30,462 nucleotides of DNA from positions 1 to 30,462 of the IMG/VR virus record IMGVR_UViG_3300025164_000291; one strand, 5' to 3'. Both the position numbers and the translations under genes were made by a program. Source of the stretch: a virus. The notes below the pieces were generated by a model, which ran no database searches, was not told the DNA's origin, and saw only the letters and a program-made list of their open reading frames with translations. Positions 498 to 30,144 of the stretch are shown in pieces; within the stretch, counting starts at the first letter, position 1; each line of letters begins with the position of its first letter.

Positions 498-3400
498 TTA
501 GCTAAGTGATCGCCACGCTGTACCATCCCACACATATATTGTCACAACTCCAGCAGTAACTCTAAACACTACACCTTTTCCGTTTGGAGGGGGATCAACT
601 GGAGCGTTTGTTGTTATAGACAAAGGTACGACATTTCCTGTCCATACAACCGACCGGAAGAGGATTGGGTCAATTTCTAAGGACAGTGCTGTAAGCTGTG
701 AAAGCGCCGGTGGCAACGTCCCGCCTTCTTGCGTTACTGTCCCTATAGAAGAAACCAGCACAAGTCCTACAAGATTACGAGTGAAATCAGCAACAACTGT
801 ACCTACTGCACTAATTACCTCCACTCCCGCAAGAGTTGGAGAAACATCCTGTCCGAGATTACCAATAACCCCTGTACTCGATACTCCACTAAGTTGCACG
901 TCACTGTTCGCTGTAGGTGTACCGACGCTTCCCGCCGCAGTATGCCCCGTAATAGGTTGTTCAGGTGCAGGAGCAGAAACATCTCCAAGTATCGCAATAG
1001 AAGAAATGCCGTCTTCAGGGATAACGAAATCAACAGTTGGCGTACCGACTTCTCCAACCGCTACGACCCCCGCCAATCCGACTGTTCCTACACCCTCCGC
1101 GATAATGGTACCAGTTCCTTCAATCCCAGACACACCAGCAAGAGAAATACTTTGACTTGAAACTAAAGTCCCAACATTCGTCGTTGCTGTGACACTTGCC
1201 AGCGGGAGTTGTAGAGAAATAGAACCAACTAATCCATTCGCAGTTATACCAGTCAGTTGGGTCGGAAGGGTTGGGGTAAGTATTCCCACGGAGGCAGAAG
1301 CAAAAACACCAGTAGGTACTATAGACATTCCGCGAGAAACTGAGCCAACCGCTACCGTCGCTGCATTTCCGGTAATTGCTTTTGTTTTAGTAAGAGCAAG
1401 AGTACCAACACTACCTGTTACTGAGTTCCCAGTAGGAACTGGCCCCTGGATAACAGAGCCTACGAAGTTTATGAGAACAACAAGTTCGTTTGAGTAACCA
1501 GAAGGTCCAATACCATTAACAGCACGAACTCTATAAGTGTAGGTCGTAGCCGAAAGGATCGTCCTGTCTGTATATGTTGTTGTATTCGCCGGAAGTGTGG
1601 CAAGCAGCGCAAACGCTCCAGCGCCAATTTTCCGCTCAAGCTCGAAGTAGTCCTCGTCGGTGCTGTTGTCATCCCACGCAAGGATGGCTGTGGGGGCATT
1701 CACTCCTGTGAGCGCAACACTGTTTGGTGGTGTGGGAGTTCCTACGGCTGTGGTTCCTACAACACCTGTTAAGGCCCGAACGAGGTCTCCGATAACAGGA
1801 GTGACGGTCCCAACACTGCCTGTGGCCGCTACCCCAGTAAGTGGAGCCGTTCCGGTTGGTATAGTAACAGAACCGACACTCCCGGTAGCCTCAATCCCAG
1901 AAAGAGCGGCTTGGCGCGGAATGCCTTGTGTGGACTTAAACTTCCATGACTGGAAGCGGCCTCCAAGGTTGCCTAAGCGCCCTCTTCCTCCAGTATTCCA
2001 ATAATAAACGAGCGGTTGGGAAACAGTAACAGAATCTACGCTCCCAGTTGCAGCTTCTCCTACAACCGCGACAGTAGAAGAGGGCGTGATTGTACCAACG
2101 GAAGCCGCCGCTTCGGTCCCAGAAATGGCTTGGGATTGGCTAACAGTCCCTATAAAGCCGGTAGAAGAGTTCCCCGTTAGTGGAATGCTGTAGTCTGGAG
2201 AAGCAGTCCCTACGTCAGAAGTGGCCGCAACACCAGAAACCGCCTGCGCTTGACTGACTGAACCAACTGCGCCTGTTGCTTCACTGCCTGTTAGGGAAAC
2301 GTCAGCACTTTGAACAACTGTACCGACAGATGCCGTGGCACTGGGTCCGGTAATTGGCGCGTCTATATTTGGAGCAGCCGCTTGAACGGCTGTAGTTGCA
2401 CTGACTCCCGTTAGAGCAGCTTCGGCATCTCCACCCTGGCTCGCAACAACAGTACCAACACTACCTATTGCTCCCTCTCCTACAAGTGGAACAGTGCTGC
2501 TTGGTACGACTGAACCAGTACCAGATGTTGCTTCAGTTCCAGTAATGGAAACGTTGGCTGAAGGTGTGAGCGTCCCTACAGCACTGGTTGCTTCAACTCC
2601 TGTAGTTGGGACGTTTTCGTTAGGGGTTAGCGTTCCTACTGCGGTAGTAGCTTCAATTCCAATAAGCGGGACACTTGAATCAGGAACAAGAGTACCGACA
2701 CTGGCGGTTGCTTCAATTCCTGAAATCGCCTGTGTCGGAATAATATTATCAACAGAAGTAGTTGCGGCTACTCCCGTCAACCCGACAGTAATAGCGACTA
2801 AAAACGCCCCAAAAAGGCCGCTGCCGAATTCGCCAGTAAGCGGCGTTTCAACATCAGAAGTTAGGACTGCCTCTTTCTTGAACCGACGAGACTGAAACCA
2901 GCCGCCCCACTTTGCTGGTTTATTCCAAACACGCGCATCTACAGCCCTGAATGTGATAGTGCTTGCTGCCCATGTGTCGGAAGACCCCATTGTATATGCG
3001 GCAGGGGCTTCTGGCCCAGGAACGCCAAGGACTTTAGATGAAATCGCGACAGTGGACCCAACCGTTGTACTGGCCTGTCCAGTATTCGCTTCTACGAGAT
3101 TAGTGTAACCGGAGGGAACTGCTGAGACGGTAGTATCGTCGTCATCCAAGAAAGCGACGGCGACACTAAGAGCGCCTGGGGTTACTGAAGTGGTTGCTGT
3201 GGGGTTTGGGGCGTTGCTGGTTCCTGTTGCTGGTGTCTGCCAGGCGGCGTCGAGAATTGTGTTAGGATCGCCGCCGCGCCATACCTGGACGACGTTGGAC
3301 TTGAGAATAGTTGCATGTTTGACGACATCAACGGTGGTGTCCGGCGTGGCCCCCATGACCTTGTAGCCAAAGTTCGCGCCGGGGTTTGCGCCCGTTCCGT

Positions 3401-3572
3401 TTTCAGGGACGGTATATCCTGCCGAGGCGATGGAATCAGCACAACTAATATCGCCAGCAGTCGCTACAAGAACAAGATCGCCTGTGATTGGCGAGCCAGG
3501 AAGCGTGATGGACTGGTTGCCAGAACCAGCAGTAATAGTTGTTCCGAGTTCTCCAACCTTCAACCACGCCAT
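498..3572 (-). CDS. Giant repeat-containing tail fibre / virion surface protein
   Basis: This 1024-residue protein starts at ATG 3572, eight bases after the previous stop. Residues 1-210 form a beta-rich, jelly-roll-like head similar in layout to the neighbouring 236-residue protein. From about residue 264 to the C-terminal region there are about 29 copies of a ~19-residue motif, roughly LTGVEATSAVGTLTPS. A Fn3-like domain (about residues 620-697, ending TYTYRVRAVNGIGPSGYSNE) interrupts the array. Two short tethers, WGGWFQSRRFKK (about 220) and GGRFQSWKFKS (about 537), punctuate it. The C-terminal 65 residues lack the repeat and end in IYVWDGTAWRSLS. Its place in the tail region and repetitive beta composition suggest a fibre or decoration protein; no enzyme motif is seen. 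Confidence 0.8.
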   Translation of the reverse strand: MAWLKVGELGTTITAGSGNQSITLPGSPITGDLVLVATAGDISCADSIASAGYTVPENGTGANPGANFGYKVMGATPDTTVDVVKHATILKSNVVQVWRGGDPNTILDAAWQTPATGTSNAPNPTATTSVTPGALSVAVAFLDDDDTTVSAVPSGYTNLVEANTGQASTTVGSTVAISSKVLGVPGPEAPAAYTMGSSDTWAASTITFRAVDARVWNKPAKWGGWFQSRRFKKEAVLTSDVETPLTGEFGSGLFGAFLVAITVGLTGVAATTSVDNIIPTQAISGIEATASVGTLVPDSSVPLIGIEATTAVGTLTPNENVPTTGVEATSAVGTLTPSANVSITGTEATSGTGSVVPSSTVPLVGEGAIGSVGTVVASQGGDAEAALTGVSATTAVQAAAPNIDAPITGPSATASVGTVVQSADVSLTGSEATGAVGSVSQAQAVSGVAATSDVGTASPDYSIPLTGNSSTGFIGTVSQSQAISGTEAAASVGTITPSSTVAVVGEAATGSVDSVTVSQPLVYYWNTGGRGRLGNLGGRFQSWKFKSTQGIPRQAALSGIEATGSVGSVTIPTGTAPLTGVAATGSVGTVTPVIGDLVRALTGVVGTTAVGTPTPPNSVALTGVNAPTAILAWDDNSTDEDYFELERKIGAGAFALLATLPANTTTYTDRTILSATTYTYRVRAVNGIGPSGYSNELVVLINFVGSVIQGPVPTGNSVTGSVGTLALTKTKAITGNAATVAVGSVSRGMSIVPTGVFASASVGILTPTLPTQLTGITANGLVGSISLQLPLASVTATTNVGTLVSSQSISLAGVSGIEGTGTIIAEGVGTVGLAGVVAVGEVGTPTVDFVIPEDGISSIAILGDVSAPAPEQPITGHTAAGSVGTPTANSDVQLSGVSSTGVIGNLGQDVSPTLAGVEVISAVGTVVADFTRNLVGLVLVSSIGTVTQEGGTLPPALSQLTALSLEIDPILFRSVVWTGNVVPLSITTNAPVDPPPNGKGVVFRVTAGVVTIYVWDGTAWRSLS
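735..2790 (-). repeat. Degenerate tandem ~57-base repeat array encoding ~19-residue units
   Basis: About 29 degenerate units lie within the fibre gene. At protein level each reads approximately (L/I)(T/S)G-x-x-AT-x-x-VG(T/S)-(V/L)-(T/S)-P/Q followed by 4-6 variable residues. The array is broken once by a GGRFQSWKFKS tether (DNA near 1930-2005) and once by a Fn3-like domain (near 1480-1710). Units differ widely at the base level, so this is an old or diversified array rather than a recent expansion. Confidence 0.75.
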
Positions 3573-17680: not shown

Positions 17681-17917
17681 TCACTCCTTTATTGATGCTT
17701 CCACACGCGCCTTCGCCGCTCTCCCCTCAAGGAACTTTTCCACAATCGCTTTAGCCGTCGGGGTCATCTTGTCCGTTTTATAAGCTTCAGTCATGGCATC
17801 CACAACAATCTCTTCCAGAAGCCCTGAAACACTCGTTGATAGCGCCCGTGCCACCCCCGAGATAAGCTCACGAACATCCGGCCTGCACGCTACTGTTGTC
17901 CATCCGTAATTAGCCAT
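17681..17917 (-). CDS. Ribbon-helix-helix-like small DNA-binding protein (candidate)
   Basis: A 78-residue protein with start at ATG 17917 after AAGGAGG. The first 45 residues fit a ribbon-helix-helix pattern: a strand (WTTVACRPDVRELI), then two helices around a turn (SGVARALSTSVSGLLEEIV). The C-terminal half is a charged helix (TAKAIVEKFLEGRAAKARVE). Proteins of this type are usually dimeric repressors. It is a candidate binder of the phage palindromes, but that link is inference. Confidence 0.62.
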   Translation of the reverse strand: MANYGWTTVACRPDVRELISGVARALSTSVSGLLEEIVVDAMTEAYKTDKMTPTAKAIVEKFLEGRAAKARVEASIKE

Positions 17918-18083
17918 CATGCTCCTCCTTGTTTGGTACATTATCACAAATACACTTTAGGCTACCCTCAATAATCTTCAGTGAATCAGGTGCTTGCCTG
18001 TATGTACCACAGTCCTTACACTGAAACGCTAACTCATTATCAAGGCGTTCCCACCTTCCCTTACTGCCTTTCACTGTGAACAT
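17910..18083 (-). CDS. Small zinc-ribbon protein
   Basis: A 57-residue protein with ATG 18083 preceded by AAGGAG. Its centre reads CKDCGTYRQAPDS, with a second cysteine pair (CIC) about 25 residues on, giving a four-Cys zinc ribbon. It overlaps the next gene's start by eight bases. It resembles many tiny phage zinc proteins of unknown role. Confidence 0.65.
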   Translation of the reverse strand: MFTVKGSKGRWERLDNELAFQCKDCGTYRQAPDSLKIIEGSLKCICDNVPNKEEHDG

Positions 18084-18150
18084 ATGACTCCTTGTAGCCC
18101 AGGGCAGACCCCCAAGCCAACGCTGCACACACTCGGTATGAGCATGGCTA

Positions 18151-18226
18151 TGGTAGAGCCAGCGAGATTCGAACTCGCAATCACCAGCTTGAAGGGCTGG
18201 GGGCTTGACCGTTCGCCTATGGCTCC
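18151..18226 (-). tRNA. tRNA-Glu (anticodon UUC) with encoded CCA
   Basis: A 76-base cloverleaf. The acceptor is GGAGCCA/TGGCTCT (first pair G-U), the D stem GGC/GCC, the anticodon stem CCAGC/GCTGG with loop CCTTCAA, and the T stem GCGAG/CTCGC with loop TTCGAAT. Discriminator A and an encoded CCA follow. The anticodon is UUC. Position 33 is C rather than the near-universal U. Confidence 0.85.
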
Positions 18227-18227
18227 G

Positions 18228-18302
18228 TGGCTGTGGAGGAAGGACTCGAACCTCCAGCGCGGTGCTTAACAGGCACCTGTTCTACCGTTGAACTACTCCA
18301 CA
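18228..18302 (-). tRNA. tRNA-Asn (anticodon GUU) with encoded CCA
   Basis: A 75-base cloverleaf. The acceptor is TGTGGAG/CTCCACA, the D stem GTTC/GAAC, and the anticodon arm GGTGC-CTGTTAA-GCACC with U33 and anticodon GUU. The T arm is GGAGG/CCTTC (one G-U pair), with discriminator G and encoded CCA. It sits one base from the tRNA-Glu, so the two are probably one transcript. Confidence 0.92.
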
Positions 18303-18304
18303 AC

Positions 18305-18380
18305 TGGAGCTAGACCGAGGACTCGAACCCCGCACCCGCTACTTACAAAGCAGCCGCTCTACCTGATGAGCTAGTCTAGC
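18305..18380 (-). tRNA. tRNA-Thr (anticodon UGU) with encoded CCA
   Basis: A 76-base cloverleaf. The acceptor is GCTAGAC/GTCTAGC, the D stem GCTC/GAGC, and the anticodon arm GCTGC-TTTGTAA-GTAGC with anticodon UGU. The T arm is CGGGG/CCTCG, with discriminator U and encoded CCA. It is first in the three-tRNA cluster by direction of transcription. I found no convincing promoter in the 150 bases upstream. Confidence 0.92.
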
Positions 18381-18533: not shown

Positions 18534-18746
18534 TTACGGAATATGCACGTCTTTTAGTGTTGTTTCAAAAAAGCCATTCGCTATCCAACCACATACTGAA
18601 CACTTATAATGCTTCTTCTCTTCTACGTACGTCCACGTATGCCACTTACATCGAGGCTTCTTTTGTTCGTATAGGTTTAGATAGTACATTACAGCAAGAA
18701 ATACAACCAGCAGCCCCCAGATAATCAGTACCTCTCCGTCGTTCAT
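18534..18746 (-). CDS. Membrane protein with C-terminal zinc ribbon
   Basis: A 70-residue protein. The start is placed at ATG 18746 because this ATG overlaps the previous gene's TGA (ATGA). Residues about 4-25 form a transmembrane helix (LIIWGLLVVFLAVMYYLNLY), followed by CKWHTWTY and then CSVCGWIANG, a His/Cys zinc-ribbon pattern on the cytoplasmic or periplasmic side. Unknown function. A longer reading to 18800 has no ribosome site. Confidence 0.6.
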   Translation of the reverse strand: MNDGEVLIIWGLLVVFLAVMYYLNLYEQKKPRCKWHTWTYVEEKKHYKCSVCGWIANGFFETTLKDVHIP

Positions 18747-18913
18747 AGTCCCCACCGTTTGTCTTTTACTAGCCCCGCAGTGATTGCACAGCGCATACAT
18801 GCCAAGTCATCACCATGCTTCACCCATGTTGTGTGTGTCCCGTGTGTTTTACACGTAAGTATGCGAATTCTCTTTCTTTCTGCTTTATGCTTCAGTGTCC
18901 GTTCACTGGCCAT
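18743..18913 (-). CDS. Small basic zinc-finger-like protein
   Basis: A 56-residue gene with GGAGGGCGGG before the ATG. It is Lys/Arg-rich at the N-terminus (TLKHKAERKRIRIL), with C21-x2-H24 and C39-x2-C42 forming a likely zinc site (CKTHGTHTTW, then CMRC). The stop overlaps the next start. In another frame the same bases give a plausible N-terminal extension of the following gene, which I reject for lack of a ribosome site. Confidence 0.6.
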   Translation of the reverse strand: MASERTLKHKAERKRIRILTCKTHGTHTTWVKHGDDLACMRCAITAGLVKDKRWGL

Positions 18914-19004
18914 CCCGCCCTCCAGTGTCTCGCGTGGCGCACCAGTAAACCAGTATAAACACTAACACAACACTCACATACGCTTCAATGAGCCATACTA
19001 GCAC
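18903..19004 (-). CDS. Tiny single-pass membrane peptide
   Basis: A 33-residue peptide with GTG start at 19004, seven bases after GGAGG. It is nearly all transmembrane (VLVWLIEAYVSVVLVFILVY) with a short polar tail. It overlaps both neighbours slightly, as is usual here. Confidence 0.5.
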   Translation of the reverse strand: MLVWLIEAYVSVVLVFILVYWCATRDTGGRDGQ

Positions 19005-19176
19005 CTAAGCACCTCCAGGGGTATGTAAACCCAAAGCTTCTAAACATACGAAGCAGCCAGTCTGAACACGAAAAGCACGCCCATTCATATTCCATACTTG
19101 ACCCAACACGGTAGCCGAATGGCAGGCCAGTCGTTATAGGTGCTGTCTTCCCACACGCGAGGCATTTCGGCTTCAC
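18985..19176 (-). CDS. Small zinc-ribbon protein
   Basis: A 63-residue protein with GTG start, AAGGGG upstream and a GTGA overlap with the preceding stop. It begins MKPKCLACGKTAPITTG and has CFSCSDWLLR about 28 residues later, giving a four-Cys zinc ribbon. Unknown function; part of the leftward accessory operon. Confidence 0.62.
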   Translation of the reverse strand: MKPKCLACGKTAPITTGLPFGYRVGSSMEYEWACFSCSDWLLRMFRSFGFTYPWRCLGASMAH

Positions 19177-23900: not shown

Positions 23901-24086
23901 ATGCCAAAGGATAAACATTCAATGGGTTCTGCTCCAGTAATTAGGTGTCCCGACTGTTACACCGAATGGTTGGCAAGCCAACCCCTCACTCTTAGGGGCT
24001 TTTGTATAAGCGAGTGCGAGTGTTGCAGTACTGCTTATGGTGTCGAGTTTACGTGCCCTTGTTGTAAACGAACGTGGAGCGAGTAG
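23901..24086 (+). CDS. Small protein with multiple zinc Cys pairs
   Basis: A 61-residue protein with GGAG nine bases upstream. CPDCYTEW, CECCSTAYG and CPCCKRTWSE provide three Cys pairs plus one extra Cys, consistent with one or two zinc ribbons. Unknown function. Confidence 0.62.
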   Translation: MPKDKHSMGSAPVIRCPDCYTEWLASQPLTLRGFCISECECCSTAYGVEFTCPCCKRTWSE

Positions 24087-24731: not shown

Positions 24732-25199
24732 GTGAGGCAATCACTTATCGACGGCCTATTTGTCGGCCCACGCCCGAAGCTAAGGGACTTTGAGAAGATG
24801 CCGAAGGTTCGCACCGTTGTAACACTGCTCAAGGAGTCAGAAGGCCCTGAGGCTATAGGTGCTGCTGTTCTCAAGAGCGGCAAAGAGTGGCTGTGGCGGC
24901 CTATAAGCTTTCGGCCTTCTGGAATGAATTGGACGCCACCAGCAGCCGTCATACTTATTGCAAGGGAAGTCCTTGACCGAATTAACCAGGGTGCCGCCGT
25001 GTTCGTGCATTGTGCAGCGGGGATTGATAGGACTGGCGTAGTGTTGTATACTGTAGCTAGGTTGAAAGGCTATAACTCAAAGGCGTCAGTCGAACTACTT
25101 GATAGCGCATACCAACAACTTAGTTTAGGTGAGCGGAAGGCACAGCAAGCGAGGGTAATCGCGCATATGACTTATGAGGAAGAATTCAATGCCAGATAA
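24732..25199 (+). CDS. Dual-specificity-phosphatase-like protein
   Basis: A 155-residue protein with GTG start and a GAGGGGG region upstream. It carries the Cys-based phosphatase loop VHCAAGIDRTG (Cys94, Arg100; C-x5-R), preceded by the usual strand. An N-terminal LFVGPRP and VRTVVTLL match the dual-specificity fold. The general-acid Asp normally found about 30 residues before the loop is not evident in RPISFRPSGMNW, so activity may be altered. It could dephosphorylate protein, nucleotide or RNA ends. It overlaps the cysteine-rich gene by 11 bases and so is translationally coupled to it. Confidence 0.8.
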   Translation: MRQSLIDGLFVGPRPKLRDFEKMPKVRTVVTLLKESEGPEAIGAAVLKSGKEWLWRPISFRPSGMNWTPPAAVILIAREVLDRINQGAAVFVHCAAGIDRTGVVLYTVARLKGYNSKASVELLDSAYQQLSLGERKAQQARVIAHMTYEEEFNAR

Positions 25200-27042
25200 A
25201 TATGTACCAACTGACTGGCCGCTTGGTAAGTTAACGAGGGGGATTTTTGGGTTCACTTCTCCGTTTGGTGTTGAGCTTGATAAGCGTATCTGTGCAATGC
25301 CGATGAGGGAGATTAGAGTTTCCGGTGGTTCACTTATAACAGATAACCATGAGCTTGTTCTGAGTTCGCACGTTGCAGTGTTTAAGGCGCTTGGGCTCCA
25401 GAATGCGCCGTTAATAAGCCGAGGGAATGTGAGGGAACGTTTGTATGGCCTGTATGGGAAGTGGAGGGACGACGCTGGGCCTTCTATGGTCGAGGCGAAT
25501 GTCTTCTTTTATAGACTAAATCAAATGTTGCAAGGTTTTCGCCTTGTAGTGAGTCACGTCGGTACGTTAGAGGAATTAGCTCAGTCAGTGAATTTTAAAT
25601 TAAGACTTCCGAGAGGAAGTCGCCTTGCGCTTGGCCTTTTTCTTGTGACGATTATGGAGGCGATTAGAGGGGTGATGAGTACTAAAAAAGTTCATCCCTT
25701 AATCGTGTCTGGCATTAAAGAATTCCTTACTGAGTTAGACGAGAAGTTTTGCGACGAAATGCAGCATGTGGTTTCGCTCGTTTCTAATAGAAAACTTAAG
25801 GACATACCGGAAGGGAAGACGAAGTGCTGGATGTGTGGAAAAACAAAGGAGTTTAAGTACTTTAGGTGCCTTTCGTGCTTAGCCTGCTCGTCATGTTGTG
25901 CCGACGACTTGAAGTGTAAGCAGTGTCGTCAGATCGTATGTGACTTTCTTCCTATCAATCGCGAGAAGAATGAAACATCGGTTTGCCCTGTTTGTTTGGA
26001 TTGCATCTTTTGCTGTAAATGCTGGCGGTGCGTTTCGTGTAACTTGGCTCAAGATAAGGAGTATAGTGGACATTGTAGCAGATGTGGGAGGTGCCATAAG
26101 TGTTGCACTTATGCATGCTGGAATGCTAGTTCGTATTCGGCTGACGCAATAAACTTAGGCGCACTTCTTGGGGTCCACTATAGTCTTGAGGGGATTCATG
26201 CGGTGATGAAGTCTCGAAAGGACTTTGAAGATAGTGGAGGATTTAAGCAACGACTAGAGAGAGAGATGGATGAAGTATCGAAGCAACTGACTAGACTACT
26301 CTACGACCAAAGCGTTCTAGCGTGTATTGGAGAAGTGAGGCACTACGGAGCGCGGGCTTGTATCGGTAACTTACTTGCAGCCAGCAACGAAGTAATTCTG
26401 GCTATAGGAGTTGTTTTACCTCAAGTGTTCAGGGCCGTTGCGAATGGACGGGATGCTGCGTATAAGAACGCTAGAGTTTATGATGACAAAGAACTGCTTG
26501 AGCTTTCCTGTCTATGTTTCCTTGCTCCTGATAGGTGGGATGGTGGATTTGGCGGAGTAGCGTGGGGAGCAATCGCAAAGAACGCGCTAGAATTCCGCCT
26601 TGGTACAATTTCGCAGGCCGAATTTGTGGAGAAGGCAATTACACTTGTGCATAACGGTGGCTCATTCATCTTTAAGCCGACGGGGCTATTTCATTCGCCT
26701 CCTGGGCAAAAACTTTATGCTATTCTAAACAGAAAATTCGAGGGCATGCTTCCTGAGTATGACTATCCGCCTGTGCTGGTAAATCCTGCACAGAAAAAAC
26801 TGATTGAGGAAGCGGAAGGGTTCGGGCTACTCAAGCGAGTGGGCGACGCGGTGCAGTTATTGCCCGAGGCAGTTTGGGGGGTGAGGTACACTCCTATTGT
26901 GTATGATACTACTCGTAAATTAAAGGGACTTCCATCCTTGGATACAGTAGAGAAGGTCATTAGTAATAACAAGATACCCCTTAGTCATTATTACGATAGA
27001 CTTAAGGCGATAGGTAAAGAATATAAAAATTTCCGTAACTAA
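25189..27042 (+). CDS. Large cysteine-rich multi-zinc protein of unknown function
   Basis: A 617-residue protein; ATG 25189 is chosen because GAGGAAG precedes it (an earlier ATG at 25174 is possible). Residues 1-205 are helical. About residues 211-308 hold 24 cysteines, mostly as C-x2-C pairs (for example CLSCLACSSCC and CSRCGRCHKCC), implying several zinc sites. The second half has ACIGEVRHYGARACIGN and then FGGVAWGAIAKNALEF and LVHNGGSFIFKP, a pattern I vaguely recall from other large-phage proteins. No catalytic family is recognised. It is flanked on both sides, at 0-11 bases, by Cys-dependent phosphatases, so a shared task is likely. Confidence 0.75.
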   Translation: MPDKYVPTDWPLGKLTRGIFGFTSPFGVELDKRICAMPMREIRVSGGSLITDNHELVLSSHVAVFKALGLQNAPLISRGNVRERLYGLYGKWRDDAGPSMVEANVFFYRLNQMLQGFRLVVSHVGTLEELAQSVNFKLRLPRGSRLALGLFLVTIMEAIRGVMSTKKVHPLIVSGIKEFLTELDEKFCDEMQHVVSLVSNRKLKDIPEGKTKCWMCGKTKEFKYFRCLSCLACSSCCADDLKCKQCRQIVCDFLPINREKNETSVCPVCLDCIFCCKCWRCVSCNLAQDKEYSGHCSRCGRCHKCCTYACWNASSYSADAINLGALLGVHYSLEGIHAVMKSRKDFEDSGGFKQRLEREMDEVSKQLTRLLYDQSVLACIGEVRHYGARACIGNLLAASNEVILAIGVVLPQVFRAVANGRDAAYKNARVYDDKELLELSCLCFLAPDRWDGGFGGVAWGAIAKNALEFRLGTISQAEFVEKAITLVHNGGSFIFKPTGLFHSPPGQKLYAILNRKFEGMLPEYDYPPVLVNPAQKKLIEEAEGFGLLKRVGDAVQLLPEAVWGVRYTPIVYDTTRKLKGLPSLDTVEKVISNNKIPLSHYYDRLKAIGKEYKNFRN

Positions 27043-27053
27043 AGGAGGTTACA

Positions 27054-27929
27054 ATGTCGAAGTGGTGGAAGAAAGGTGGAGTGATTGGTCGTGGCCAGAG
27101 CCACAAAGACGACAAGACACACGGGCCAATTAGTAAGTGGAAATGTCATGAGGGAAATATGTTTGTGTTTGATTCACCGTCTGGTGTACTTAAGTTTCAT
27201 GGTGCGGGGAGGACCCGTGGACTTCAGGAGAGGGCTGGCTGGCTGTACCTTGACTGTGCCGATTTGTACTTGCCTGCTGTTATGTGTTCCGGCTTTGCAC
27301 CTATGATGTTAGCGAGTCATATACCAAAGAGGCTTCGGGTTGGAGTAGATTGGCCCGATATGGGTATACCTCTTTTGGACAAAGAATTCTGGTTGGCACT
27401 CCTTAGTGACCTTGAGCAGCTTGCAGCGAACGTGAAGAACAAACCCTTGAATGTTGTGGCGTGCTGCCAAGGTGGGCACGGTAGAACTGGCTCGGCTCTG
27501 TCGGTAATTGCTGGACTTTATAAACTGGCGGATAATCCAGTAGAGTTTGTTCGAAAGAAGTACTGTGATAAGGCGGTAGAAACGACGGGTCAGGTCAACT
27601 ACGTGAAGGACATTACTGAGTTAAAGTTTACAGCAGAACCAGGAAAGGGAGTGTATACGGGGTTGACTTCTGGTATTTATGACCCTGTAGGTTATACTCC
27701 GTACAGTGGAGTGCATATAACTGATGATACACCGCTACATTACTACCGAAAGGGAGTTAAAGTATTTGGTGGTGGAGCGCATGACGAAGGGACCGGCTCC
27801 ACTAACAAAAAGCTCACAGACGCAACTCAGTGGGGAGTGTGTACTGTGTGTCGCGGGGACGCAATAGATGGGACGTGTGTAAGCTGTTGGCTTGATGTTC
27901 CTTATTGCGACTGCCCCCTAAACAAGTAA
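27054..27929 (+). CDS. PTP-like cysteine phosphatase with C-terminal zinc ribbon
   Basis: A 291-residue protein with AAAGGAGG upstream. The three hallmarks of tyrosine-phosphatase-like enzymes are in order: a WPD loop at 100-102 (VGVDWPDMGIP), a signature loop CCQGGHGRTG (Cys138, Arg144), and a Gln at 180 in ETTGQVNYV. The segment between WPD and the loop (DKEFWLALLSDLEQLA) and VEFVRKKYCDKAVE after it match phosphatases I know from phages. The C-terminal 30 residues contain CTVCRG and CVSCWLDVPYCDC, a zinc ribbon. Substrate unknown. Pairing with the first phosphatase and the cysteine-rich protein suggests one functional cassette. Confidence 0.83.
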   Translation: MSKWWKKGGVIGRGQSHKDDKTHGPISKWKCHEGNMFVFDSPSGVLKFHGAGRTRGLQERAGWLYLDCADLYLPAVMCSGFAPMMLASHIPKRLRVGVDWPDMGIPLLDKEFWLALLSDLEQLAANVKNKPLNVVACCQGGHGRTGSALSVIAGLYKLADNPVEFVRKKYCDKAVETTGQVNYVKDITELKFTAEPGKGVYTGLTSGIYDPVGYTPYSGVHITDDTPLHYYRKGVKVFGGGAHDEGTGSTNKKLTDATQWGVCTVCRGDAIDGTCVSCWLDVPYCDCPLNK

Positions 27930-27960: not shown

Positions 27961-28347
27961 ATGTTGAAGCAATCGCTGGCAGGGACGGGCAAGACCTACG
28001 TGGAAGTCCAGGCACGGATGTATCCTGGTGGGGTGCTGCATGTCCAAGGGAGAGGCCATAAGGCGAACCGTGAATACGGTATTGCAGTGAATCTGGCGGT
28101 GCCTAGCGATGTTCGGTCGTTTTTCAATCGAGAGGAGCCGAGCAAGGCATCGAAGCTTTCACAGGCGAACACCGGGGCACGGTATATCCCTGGGCAGGTG
28201 CGGTCACGTCGTGGGTATCTGCATTTCCAGTTCAAAGATGGCGGAGCGAATCGGATGTACGGCATTGCGTTTGATGTGCAGCGTACTGCGTCATCCGACG
28301 CCTCTACTCTGTGGACTTGGACTGCGGAGAACATCATCGGTAGCTGA
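27961..28347 (+). CDS. Unknown protein with an internal duplication
   Basis: A 128-residue protein with AGGAGGTGA upstream. Two halves repeat: GGVLHVQGRGHKANREYGIA near residue 23 and RGYLHFQFKDGGANRMYGIA near residue 84. Each is a beta unit of about 30 residues, so the protein is probably a two-repeat beta fold. A basic and polar linker lies between them. No known domain. Confidence 0.65.
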   Translation: MLKQSLAGTGKTYVEVQARMYPGGVLHVQGRGHKANREYGIAVNLAVPSDVRSFFNREEPSKASKLSQANTGARYIPGQVRSRRGYLHFQFKDGGANRMYGIAFDVQRTASSDASTLWTWTAENIIGS

Positions 28348-28834: not shown

Positions 28835-29173
28835 ATGGTAGAGTCGCAGGTTAGGCAGTGGTACTATGCGTTCCTTAATCAGACGCGCGATACACTCTTT
28901 AGTCAAGTGAGTAGCTGTTGTCTAGGGTTGTACAATCCAAGGAGTCAAGATAGGACGCACGTTTCACGTAAGTGGCGGGATAACGTGTACGATAGAGAGG
29001 TACTGCATATTTCTCCTATGCCGTGTATTCAATTCGACGGCAAAGTAGATGCTTTCACCCCCGGATTCGAGCTTATAACTGTACTTTGTACTGACGGTAA
29101 GACTATAGGACACCATAAACCTGGTGAGTGTCCATTCATGGTCCCACCTGGCCCCAAGGAGGAACTAAAATGA
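28835..29173 (+). CDS. Unknown 112-residue protein upstream of RNA ligase
   Basis: AAGGAGG precedes the ATG. The protein has two adjacent Cys (SSCCLGLYNPR), a basic centre (QDRTHVSRKWRDN) and a terminal GKTIGHHKPGECPFM with a His/Cys cluster. Its TGA overlaps the RNA-ligase ATG, so the two are translated together. A partner role for the ligase is possible but only inferred from coupling. Confidence 0.6.
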   Translation: MVESQVRQWYYAFLNQTRDTLFSQVSSCCLGLYNPRSQDRTHVSRKWRDNVYDREVLHISPMPCIQFDGKVDAFTPGFELITVLCTDGKTIGHHKPGECPFMVPPGPKEELK

Positions 29174-30144
29174 GCCACCTTGCGTCGTATCCGAAAGTGT
29201 ATGGGTATGGGCATAAATACTTGACTGACTTACTAAAGAGTGGTGTTACTGTAGTGCAGGAGAAAGTGGATGGGAGTCAGTTTTCGTTCCGTAAAGTGGA
29301 GAGCGGTGAGGTACAGTTTCGGTCAAGGACTGCGATAATCCAACCTGAACAGCCACCGAATATGTTTGCGCCTGCGGTGAAGTATGTATTAAGTGTGGCA
29401 ACCTTGTTGGTGACTGACGCAACTTATAGGGGTGAGGCGTTTCATAAGCCAAAACACAATGTAATGGCGTATGCAAGGGTGCCGCATGGGAACGTGGCAT
29501 TGTTTGACGTAGAATATGAAGGGCAGAATTTCATTTATCACCCTCAAACTCTTAACGAGTACGCCGAACACCTCGGACTTGAGCCAGTGACCAACTACTT
29601 TTATGGAGATGCGTCACAGCTTTCGCTAGAGAAGTTAATGGAGTTTCTTAAGTATAGGTCCTTCCTCGGTGGGGGTGAAGTTGAGGGTATTGTTGTTAAG
29701 AACTACGATAGATTTGGTATTGATGGGAAGGTGATGATGGCGAAGATCGTGAGTGCGGACTTTAAGGAGAAGCACCGGACAGAGTGGAAGGGGATGGGGC
29801 AAGGTAAGGGTGACATCGTGACCCGGATTGTGGAGGTACTCAAGACTGAGGCACGGTGGCGTAAGGCTGTGCAACACTTGAGGGAGGCTGGCACACTACT
29901 GGAAGAGCCGAAGGACATTGGCTCAATCATCTTGGAGTTGAAACGTGATTTACTGGAAGAGGAAGGCGAGTGGCTAAAAGAGCAGATGTTTAAGGAATTG
30001 ATTGGGGACGTACTGAGGGGTGTGTGTCGGGGCGTGGCGGAGTGGTATAAGGCGGAGTTGATGAAGGCTACTGAAGGAGTGGATGATGGCATGGATACGA
30101 GGAGCGCCAAAAACGCCGCGTTGGGTGAGGGGAGCGGCGGTTGA
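29170..30144 (+). CDS. RNA ligase, T4 Rnl2-like nucleotidyltransferase
   Basis: A 324-residue protein; ATG 29170 follows AAGGAGG by seven bases. Nucleotidyltransferase motifs are clear: motif I EKVDGS with Lys32, RGEAF (87-91), motif IIIa LFDVE (111-115), motif IV EGIVVKN (172-178) and motif V AKIVS (191-195). Such enzymes adenylylate a 5'-phosphate and join RNA nicks, and phages use them to mend tRNAs cut by host anticodon nucleases. The helical C-terminal third (GDIVTRIVEVLKTEARWR) is not part of the core. A polynucleotide kinase is not visible in the window. Confidence 0.88.
   Translation: MSHLASYPKVYGYGHKYLTDLLKSGVTVVQEKVDGSQFSFRKVESGEVQFRSRTAIIQPEQPPNMFAPAVKYVLSVATLLVTDATYRGEAFHKPKHNVMAYARVPHGNVALFDVEYEGQNFIYHPQTLNEYAEHLGLEPVTNYFYGDASQLSLEKLMEFLKYRSFLGGGEVEGIVVKNYDRFGIDGKVMMAKIVSADFKEKHRTEWKGMGQGKGDIVTRIVEVLKTEARWRKAVQHLREAGTLLEEPKDIGSIILELKRDLLEEEGEWLKEQMFKELIGDVLRGVCRGVAEWYKAELMKATEGVDDGMDTRSAKNAALGEGSGG

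Follow-up and report, generated by a model that had tools for sequence, protein, structure and literature searches.

Three neighboring phage genes, P1, C, and P2, may represent a divergent, stripped-down version of a module that is conserved among phages and serves to edit phosphorylation within the infected cell; taken jointly, these two propositions have, in our estimate, about an even chance of being right. The genes are found in IMG/VR virus record IMGVR_UViG_3300025164_000291, whose 30,462 bases are referred to as the window. In most carriers of the module, C and its two flanking PTP-fold proteins are accompanied by a PPDK-derived ATP-grasp/phosphohistidine phosphotransferase devoid of the barrel, a CsrA-like protein (X), and a further protein (Z).

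Organization of the genes in the window

A sequence-only reading of this DNA had described two phosphatase-like genes around the gene for a 617-residue protein, and the corresponding ORFs, which are neighbors in one shared orientation, were confirmed at their coordinates (Table 1). The length of 617 aa results from an alternative start of C at ATG 25189, with AGGAA located just 5′ of it; the overlap between P1 and C is 11 bases with this start and 26 bases with that at 25174. C and P2 are separated by a spacer of 11 bases (27043–27053), and both the overlap of the first pair and the short gap of the second, pointed out in the same reading, are borne out.

Table 1. Coordinates of P1, C, P2, and their features in the window.
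Feature	Coordinates	Strand	Description
P1	24732..25199	+	PTP-superfamily protein, 155 aa, GTG start
P1 catalytic P-loop CAAGIDRTG	25011..25037	+	residues 94–102, direct reading
C	25174..27042	+	622 aa from ATG 25174; divergent member of phage family PHROG 20946
N-terminal helical stretch of C	25492..25692	+	residues 107–173, weak likeness to family positions 67–135
Cys-rich region of C	25825..26118	+	residues 218–315, 24 Cys
Conserved alpha-helical core of C	26254..26808	+	residues 361–545; E387, R389, H390, G460, G461, W464, H493, N494, K501
P2	27054..27929	+	PTP-superfamily phosphatase, 291 aa
P2 catalytic loop CQGGHGRTG	27465..27491	+	residues 138–146
P2 C-terminal tail	27831..27926	+	six Cys, zinc-ribbon-like, not in relatives' P2

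A near-identical second IMG/VR contig, the only close relative of the window P1, C, or P2 detected in viral contigs, adds 7.7 kb on the right side of the window. This extension carries genes for an exoribonuclease, a PD-(D/E)XK nuclease, and an AAA ATPase, and no further genes of the module. Profiles of PPDK, X, and Z gave no match in the 38 kb of window plus extension, both contigs being partial. The gene at 27961–28347, encoding a 128-aa protein of two similar halves with a G-x-L-H-V/F-Q-x-K/G … N-R-x-Y-G-I-A motif occurring twice, has no informative family match and was ruled out as Z (hhalign prob <1), as were genes 28533 and 28835 (hhalign prob <1); gene 23145 was likewise ruled out by hhalign as X.

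The window phage is organized differently from the named carriers of the module, and is of a different phage type; the best matches of its terminase are, for example, with Roseobacter CRP-7 (34%). It is rich in small Cys-motif (zinc-ribbon-like) proteins, with CxxC pairs in those encoded at 17910–18128, 18534–18800, 18985–19176, and 23901–24086. Three adjacent tRNA genes (Glu, Asn, and Thr) are located on the minus strand at 18151–18380. The 1024-aa protein encoded at 498–3572, on the same strand, combines a fibronectin III domain with numerous short repeats of the degenerate type TGVxATxxVGTxxP, and is probably a protein of the tail or surface.

C as a member of a predicted all-alpha family

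The large protein had been said to belong to no recognized catalytic family, and this still holds: searches of Pfam, NCBIfam, PADLOC, PDB sequences, and PDB folds recognized no family for C, and no confident match to an unrelated known family emerged from either sequence or fold searches. PADLOC models of anti-phage defense also matched none of the seven proteins submitted. C is, however, matched to PHROG 20946 (2.8e-9), a family of phage proteins nameless in function. With the HMM of the C family, it scores 44.8 bits (4.5e-12), as compared to 6.0 bits for the best of 5,000 shuffles, and hhalign gives prob 98 with E 2.4e-13. Short local alignments with hypothetical proteins of RcZahn and Vibrio phages were also obtained. 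The RcZahn C protein as a query retrieves 40 phage records, and profile scans of IMG/VR and genomes yield about 70 distinct C loci. By its score as compared to the shuffles, the kinship of the window C with the PHROG 20946 family is solid.

Identity among the relatives of C falls to about 30%, and 18 residues are invariant among 60 relatives without the window. When the window is included, the residues listed for the core in Table 1 are invariant in all 61 aligned sequences, together with L491, L518, and G524. The invariant E, R, H, W, H, N, and K lie at helix ends and in loops, and look like the residue set of an enzyme. The window C departs at six of the 18 positions (R to G, D to E, N to F, D to N, Q to K, and one Tyr), and its activity is therefore possibly different from that of the relatives. 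The N-terminal helical stretch shows a faint likeness to another part of the family profile (hhalign E 0.007, prob 5), hinting at a possible degenerate internal duplication.

A structural model of the C protein from one relative, L038, is of high quality (pLDDT 95.8) and all-alpha. With the window C, modeling was less successful (pLDDT 58.5): values are mostly 70–96 at residues 360–500 but poor elsewhere, so that its structural reading is limited to the core. A Foldseek search of PDB folds with the L038 model found nothing significant (best E 0.53, TM <0.2), while four entries in a viral structure library, seemingly of the same family, were hit at E <0.001, and the same four were retrieved with the window model. 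As far as the models tell, C represents a new all-alpha protein family.

The Cys-rich region of C

The earlier count of 24 cysteines in about 100 residues proved accurate: of the 30 Cys in C, 24 lie within a stretch of 98 residues, amounting to 24% Cys as compared to about 1% elsewhere. Three C-x2-C-x2-C-x3-C blocks are found at 232, 271, and 301. Their spacing is compatible with zinc knuckles and also with ferredoxin-type Fe-S sites, and therefore the designation "multi-zinc scaffold" in the sequence-only reading was a guess as to the metal, although the Cys cluster itself is real. Nor is the cluster the shared feature of the module, since it has no counterpart in any of the surveyed relatives, which have 1–10 Cys per C protein. 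Used alone as a query, the region gave no phage match and one marginal PDB match (E 0.04). It is a probable metal-binding insert, unique to the window phage by its sequence.

Distribution of the module in other phages

Because loci were gathered by C alone, the genes next to it provide an independent test of the association. Among 68 distinct loci thus fetched, in which genes were scored only where enough flank was present, a PTP gene is located 5′ of C (P1) in 61 of 62 and 3′ of C (P2) in 59 of 61. Furthermore, the PPDK-like phosphotransferase, the CsrA-like X, and Z are present in every testable C locus (55/55, 57/57, and 60/60, respectively), and the exact order PPDK-X-P1-C-P2-Z is kept in 50 of the 68 loci, counts that do not equal independent evolutionary events as many of the carrier phages are related. 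All of seven cellular-genome contigs harbor the full set in the identical order. The module is found in the named phages RcZahn, PG28, and TM16, and the gene table of DLP3 shows the block too (PMC7326821). Lack of co-occurrence in other phages had been proposed as one outcome that would refute the idea of a dedicated complex; instead, more than 60 other phage loci contain the trio with order and orientation unchanged, and the arrangement is not a product of chance.

There are exceptions. C is directly followed by Z, without P2, in L003 (1.215.A) and L014, and in SIO-2 a separate P2 gene is lacking in the interval from C to the polymerase. P2 is therefore not strictly required in some lineages.

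What the C proteins share is the alpha-helical domain, and not the Cys-rich part that the sequence-only reading had put at the center. The module corresponds to the block of PHROG 20946, 17568, and 18609 in siphophages of 80–105 kb, such as SIO-2, J26 ("Modirecodeviridae"), DLP3 and DLP5 (Delepquintavirus), RcZahn, and Rhizobium TM16. The window resembles this block in the core of C, in the order and orientation of P1-C-P2, and in an orthologous P2. In contrast, PPDK, the CsrA-like X, and Z are missing from the available sequence, P1 is divergent, C contains the 98-residue Cys-rich region, P2 has a Cys tail, and the phage is of a different type. Going by its gene content, the window shows that P1-C-P2 can apparently exist without a neighboring kinase.

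In the named phages inspected, the block lies between the terminase and the DNA polymerase I/portal genes. Its position upstream of DNA polymerase I and portal genes, together with invariant polar residues of C that resemble an active site, would fit a pathway for a modified nucleotide, cofactor, or DNA base, in which a small molecule would be phosphorylated by the PPDK-like enzyme, with C as the transferase and P1 and P2 for the removal of phosphates. We consider such a pathway unlikely, as no base-modification gene was recognized adjoining the module and the window triad has no neighboring kinase.

P2 as a PTP-fold protein with its catalytic set complete

The window P2 has the full PTP set: a C-x5-R loop, a general-acid Asp (in DMGIP) on the N-terminal side of it, and a Gln in the Q-loop AVETTGQ on the C-terminal side. 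Matches of the window P2 with PTP families in Pfam are all sub-threshold, while it matches the P2 family at E 1e-13 with a three-sequence profile and 6.8e-16 with a refined HMM. The P2 family profile in turn matches solved PTPs at E 2e-10, including archaeal 5z59 and SsoPTP. In the tree, P1s and P2s form separate clades, and the window P2 joins the clade of all 62 P2s with a support of 0.88, as would be expected if the triad was inherited as a unit. The catalytic motifs are well kept in relatives: the loop C-x2-G-x2-R-(T/S)-G in 61 of 62 P1s and all 62 P2s, the general-acid Asp in all 61 P1s and 61 of 62 P2s, and VE(S/T)xxQ in 58 of 61 P1s and 60 of 62 P2s.

The P2 family is phrog_17568, which is labeled "thymidylate synthase" in PHROGs and GenBank, as for DLP3 gp141. 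From its motifs and profile matches, phrog_17568, including gp141, is a PTP-fold protein, not the enzyme of its label. It shares the Cys-x5-Arg loop, the preceding Asp, and the later VE(S/T)xxQ with the archaeal-type PTP/DSPs of Thermococcus (5z59) and Sulfolobus (SsoPTP), and differs from them in GHG within the loop and an extra conserved N-terminal region, to which the Cys tail is added in the window P2.

P1 as a divergent PTP subtype

The window P1 passes the gathering score of Pfam Y_phosphatase3 (28.1 bits, E 2.5e-6), and its motif HCAAGIDRTG at residues 93–102 provides the C-x5-R loop as C94…R100. However, no Asp-x2-4-Pro was found 20–45 residues N-terminal of the Cys, and no VE(S/T)xxQ after the loop. 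Its match to the relatives' P1 is weak (hhalign prob 93 over 56 columns only; hmmsearch 1.7e-5), and it sits on a long branch in the tree. The window P1 is of a divergent PTP subtype; it may lack activity, serve for binding, or be adapted to labile phosphates. Of the two Cys-dependent phosphatases claimed earlier, P2 has its catalytic set complete, while for P1, lacking the general-acid Asp and the Q-loop Gln, the label of an ordinary active phosphatase is unsafe.

The missing Asp has a precedent. Its absence is tolerated in PTP-fold RNA triphosphatases, and a set for repair of RNA ends or nucleotides could be imagined in which the PTP-fold enzymes act on RNA 5′/3′ phosphates with a ligase, while the Cys-rich part of C serves for RNA binding. 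Indeed, an RNA ligase is encoded at 29128–30144 (PF09414, 8e-12; phrog_548, 2e-22), 1.2 kb downstream of the triad, tRNA genes are located upstream of it, and the best Pfam match of the relatives' P1 and P2 is PTP-SAK, which might be a further hint. On the other hand, the annotations around the module include no RNA ligase in the relatives inspected, and an ATP-grasp/phosphohistidine kinase is not an RNA-end kinase, so that we regard this repair function as rather improbable.

Loss of the Asp and Gln from P1, together with the six altered positions of C, might otherwise mean that the window copy is a decaying remnant, with catalytic residues gone from both of these proteins and P2 as its one working member. 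This is very unlikely in view of three open frames with good starts and tight spacing, the near-identical second contig, and a C protein that has gained a large organized Cys-rich region and has not shrunk.

The PPDK-like kinase and CsrA-like protein of the relatives

The relatives' kinase has strong ATP-grasp and phosphohistidine domains like PPDK, with the His motif in 60 of 62, and differs from PPDK in that the pyruvate/PEP-binding TIM barrel is missing. In Pfam, only PPDK_N and the mobile domain are matched, without PEP-utilizers_C; one relative's kinase scores 566 bits against the TIGR01828 cut-off of 843, covering 3–526 of 865 profile positions. The C-termini are poorly conserved. As the alignment of the kinase profile with PPDK chains in the PDB extends to about residue 657 of 873, a vestige of the start of the barrel may be present. 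No such kinase was found in the window, and the same applies to X, which has a segment like the CsrA-like regulators of other phages.

The J26 enzyme has been named PPDK and described with a four-strand barrel, while the superposition in that paper covers residues 1–527 (PMC12038007). A metabolic take-over, namely a PPDK-based set for carbon metabolism like that described for J26, in which the phosphatases would have a regulatory part, would agree with the strong likeness to PPDK over the two domains, and with the encoding of CsrA, a regulator of host carbon metabolism, beside the PPDK-like gene (PMC12038007). This is quite unlikely to be the function, because the enzyme either lacks the pyruvate/PEP barrel or has a tail of low conservation in its place, and neither the window nor its extension yielded a PPDK. 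Missing barrel and failed TIGR01828 cut-off make the carbon-metabolism annotation of phage PPDK (L002–L005 and L011–L088) doubtful; by its domain content, phage "PPDK" is probably a phosphotransferase with a different acceptor.

Proposed role of the module

Editing of phosphorylation inside the infected cell, the reading that we prefer, would divide the work as follows. C is most likely the center for substrate handling or catalysis. P2 would be an active Cys-dependent phosphatase, taking phosphate off a substrate bound or made by C, and P1 a second PTP-fold partner, normally active. The window P1 is possibly specialized for an easily cleaved phosphate (5′-triphosphate, acyl-phosphate, phosphohistidine, or phosphoarginine) or for binding only. 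Both the Cys-rich insert of C and the Cys tail of P2 are probable metal-binding elements that may hold or target the complex. In most carriers, the PPDK-derived shuttle would be the writer and P2 the eraser. A physical P1-C-P2 complex, its enzymatic activity and substrate, and the hand-over from C to P2 are what we infer from these data.

Virion proteomics of DLP3 disfavors a role as virion proteins: PPDK (gp135), P1 (gp139), C (gp140), and P2 (gp141), and likewise the next gene product at the position of Z (gp142), are not among the 21 virion-associated proteins (PMC7326821 Table 4), which points to work within the cell.

A bolder version can be put forward only tentatively, and is in our view somewhat doubtful. 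P-C-P and the barrel-less PPDK might constitute a new phosphorylation system, in which ATP charges a phosphohistidine shuttle, C phosphorylates the target, and the two phosphatases reverse it. In the window, only the half that erases would then be at work, and its C would bear a metal cluster.

Significance

In the literature searched, which covers few subscription journals, no paper names the P1-C-P2 gene block as a unit, and mentions are limited to single genes: PPDK, CsrA, PTP, and "thymidylate synthase" for P2. The block is catalogued yet uncharacterized, having been sequenced in dozens of phages and filed under nameless or misnamed families ("thymidylate synthase" and "pyruvate phosphate dikinase"), and the window carries a new variant of it. 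Recognized as a unit, it implies that the PPDK published as a "metabolic gene" is probably a phosphotransferase of another kind, and it offers a new fold in which the residues worth mutating are clearly marked out, while the function of the module becomes testable in phages that can be cultured in the laboratory, such as DLP3, RcZahn, and SIO-2. The block seems to be a phage toolkit, so far undescribed, that takes phosphate off and, in most carriers, also puts it on.
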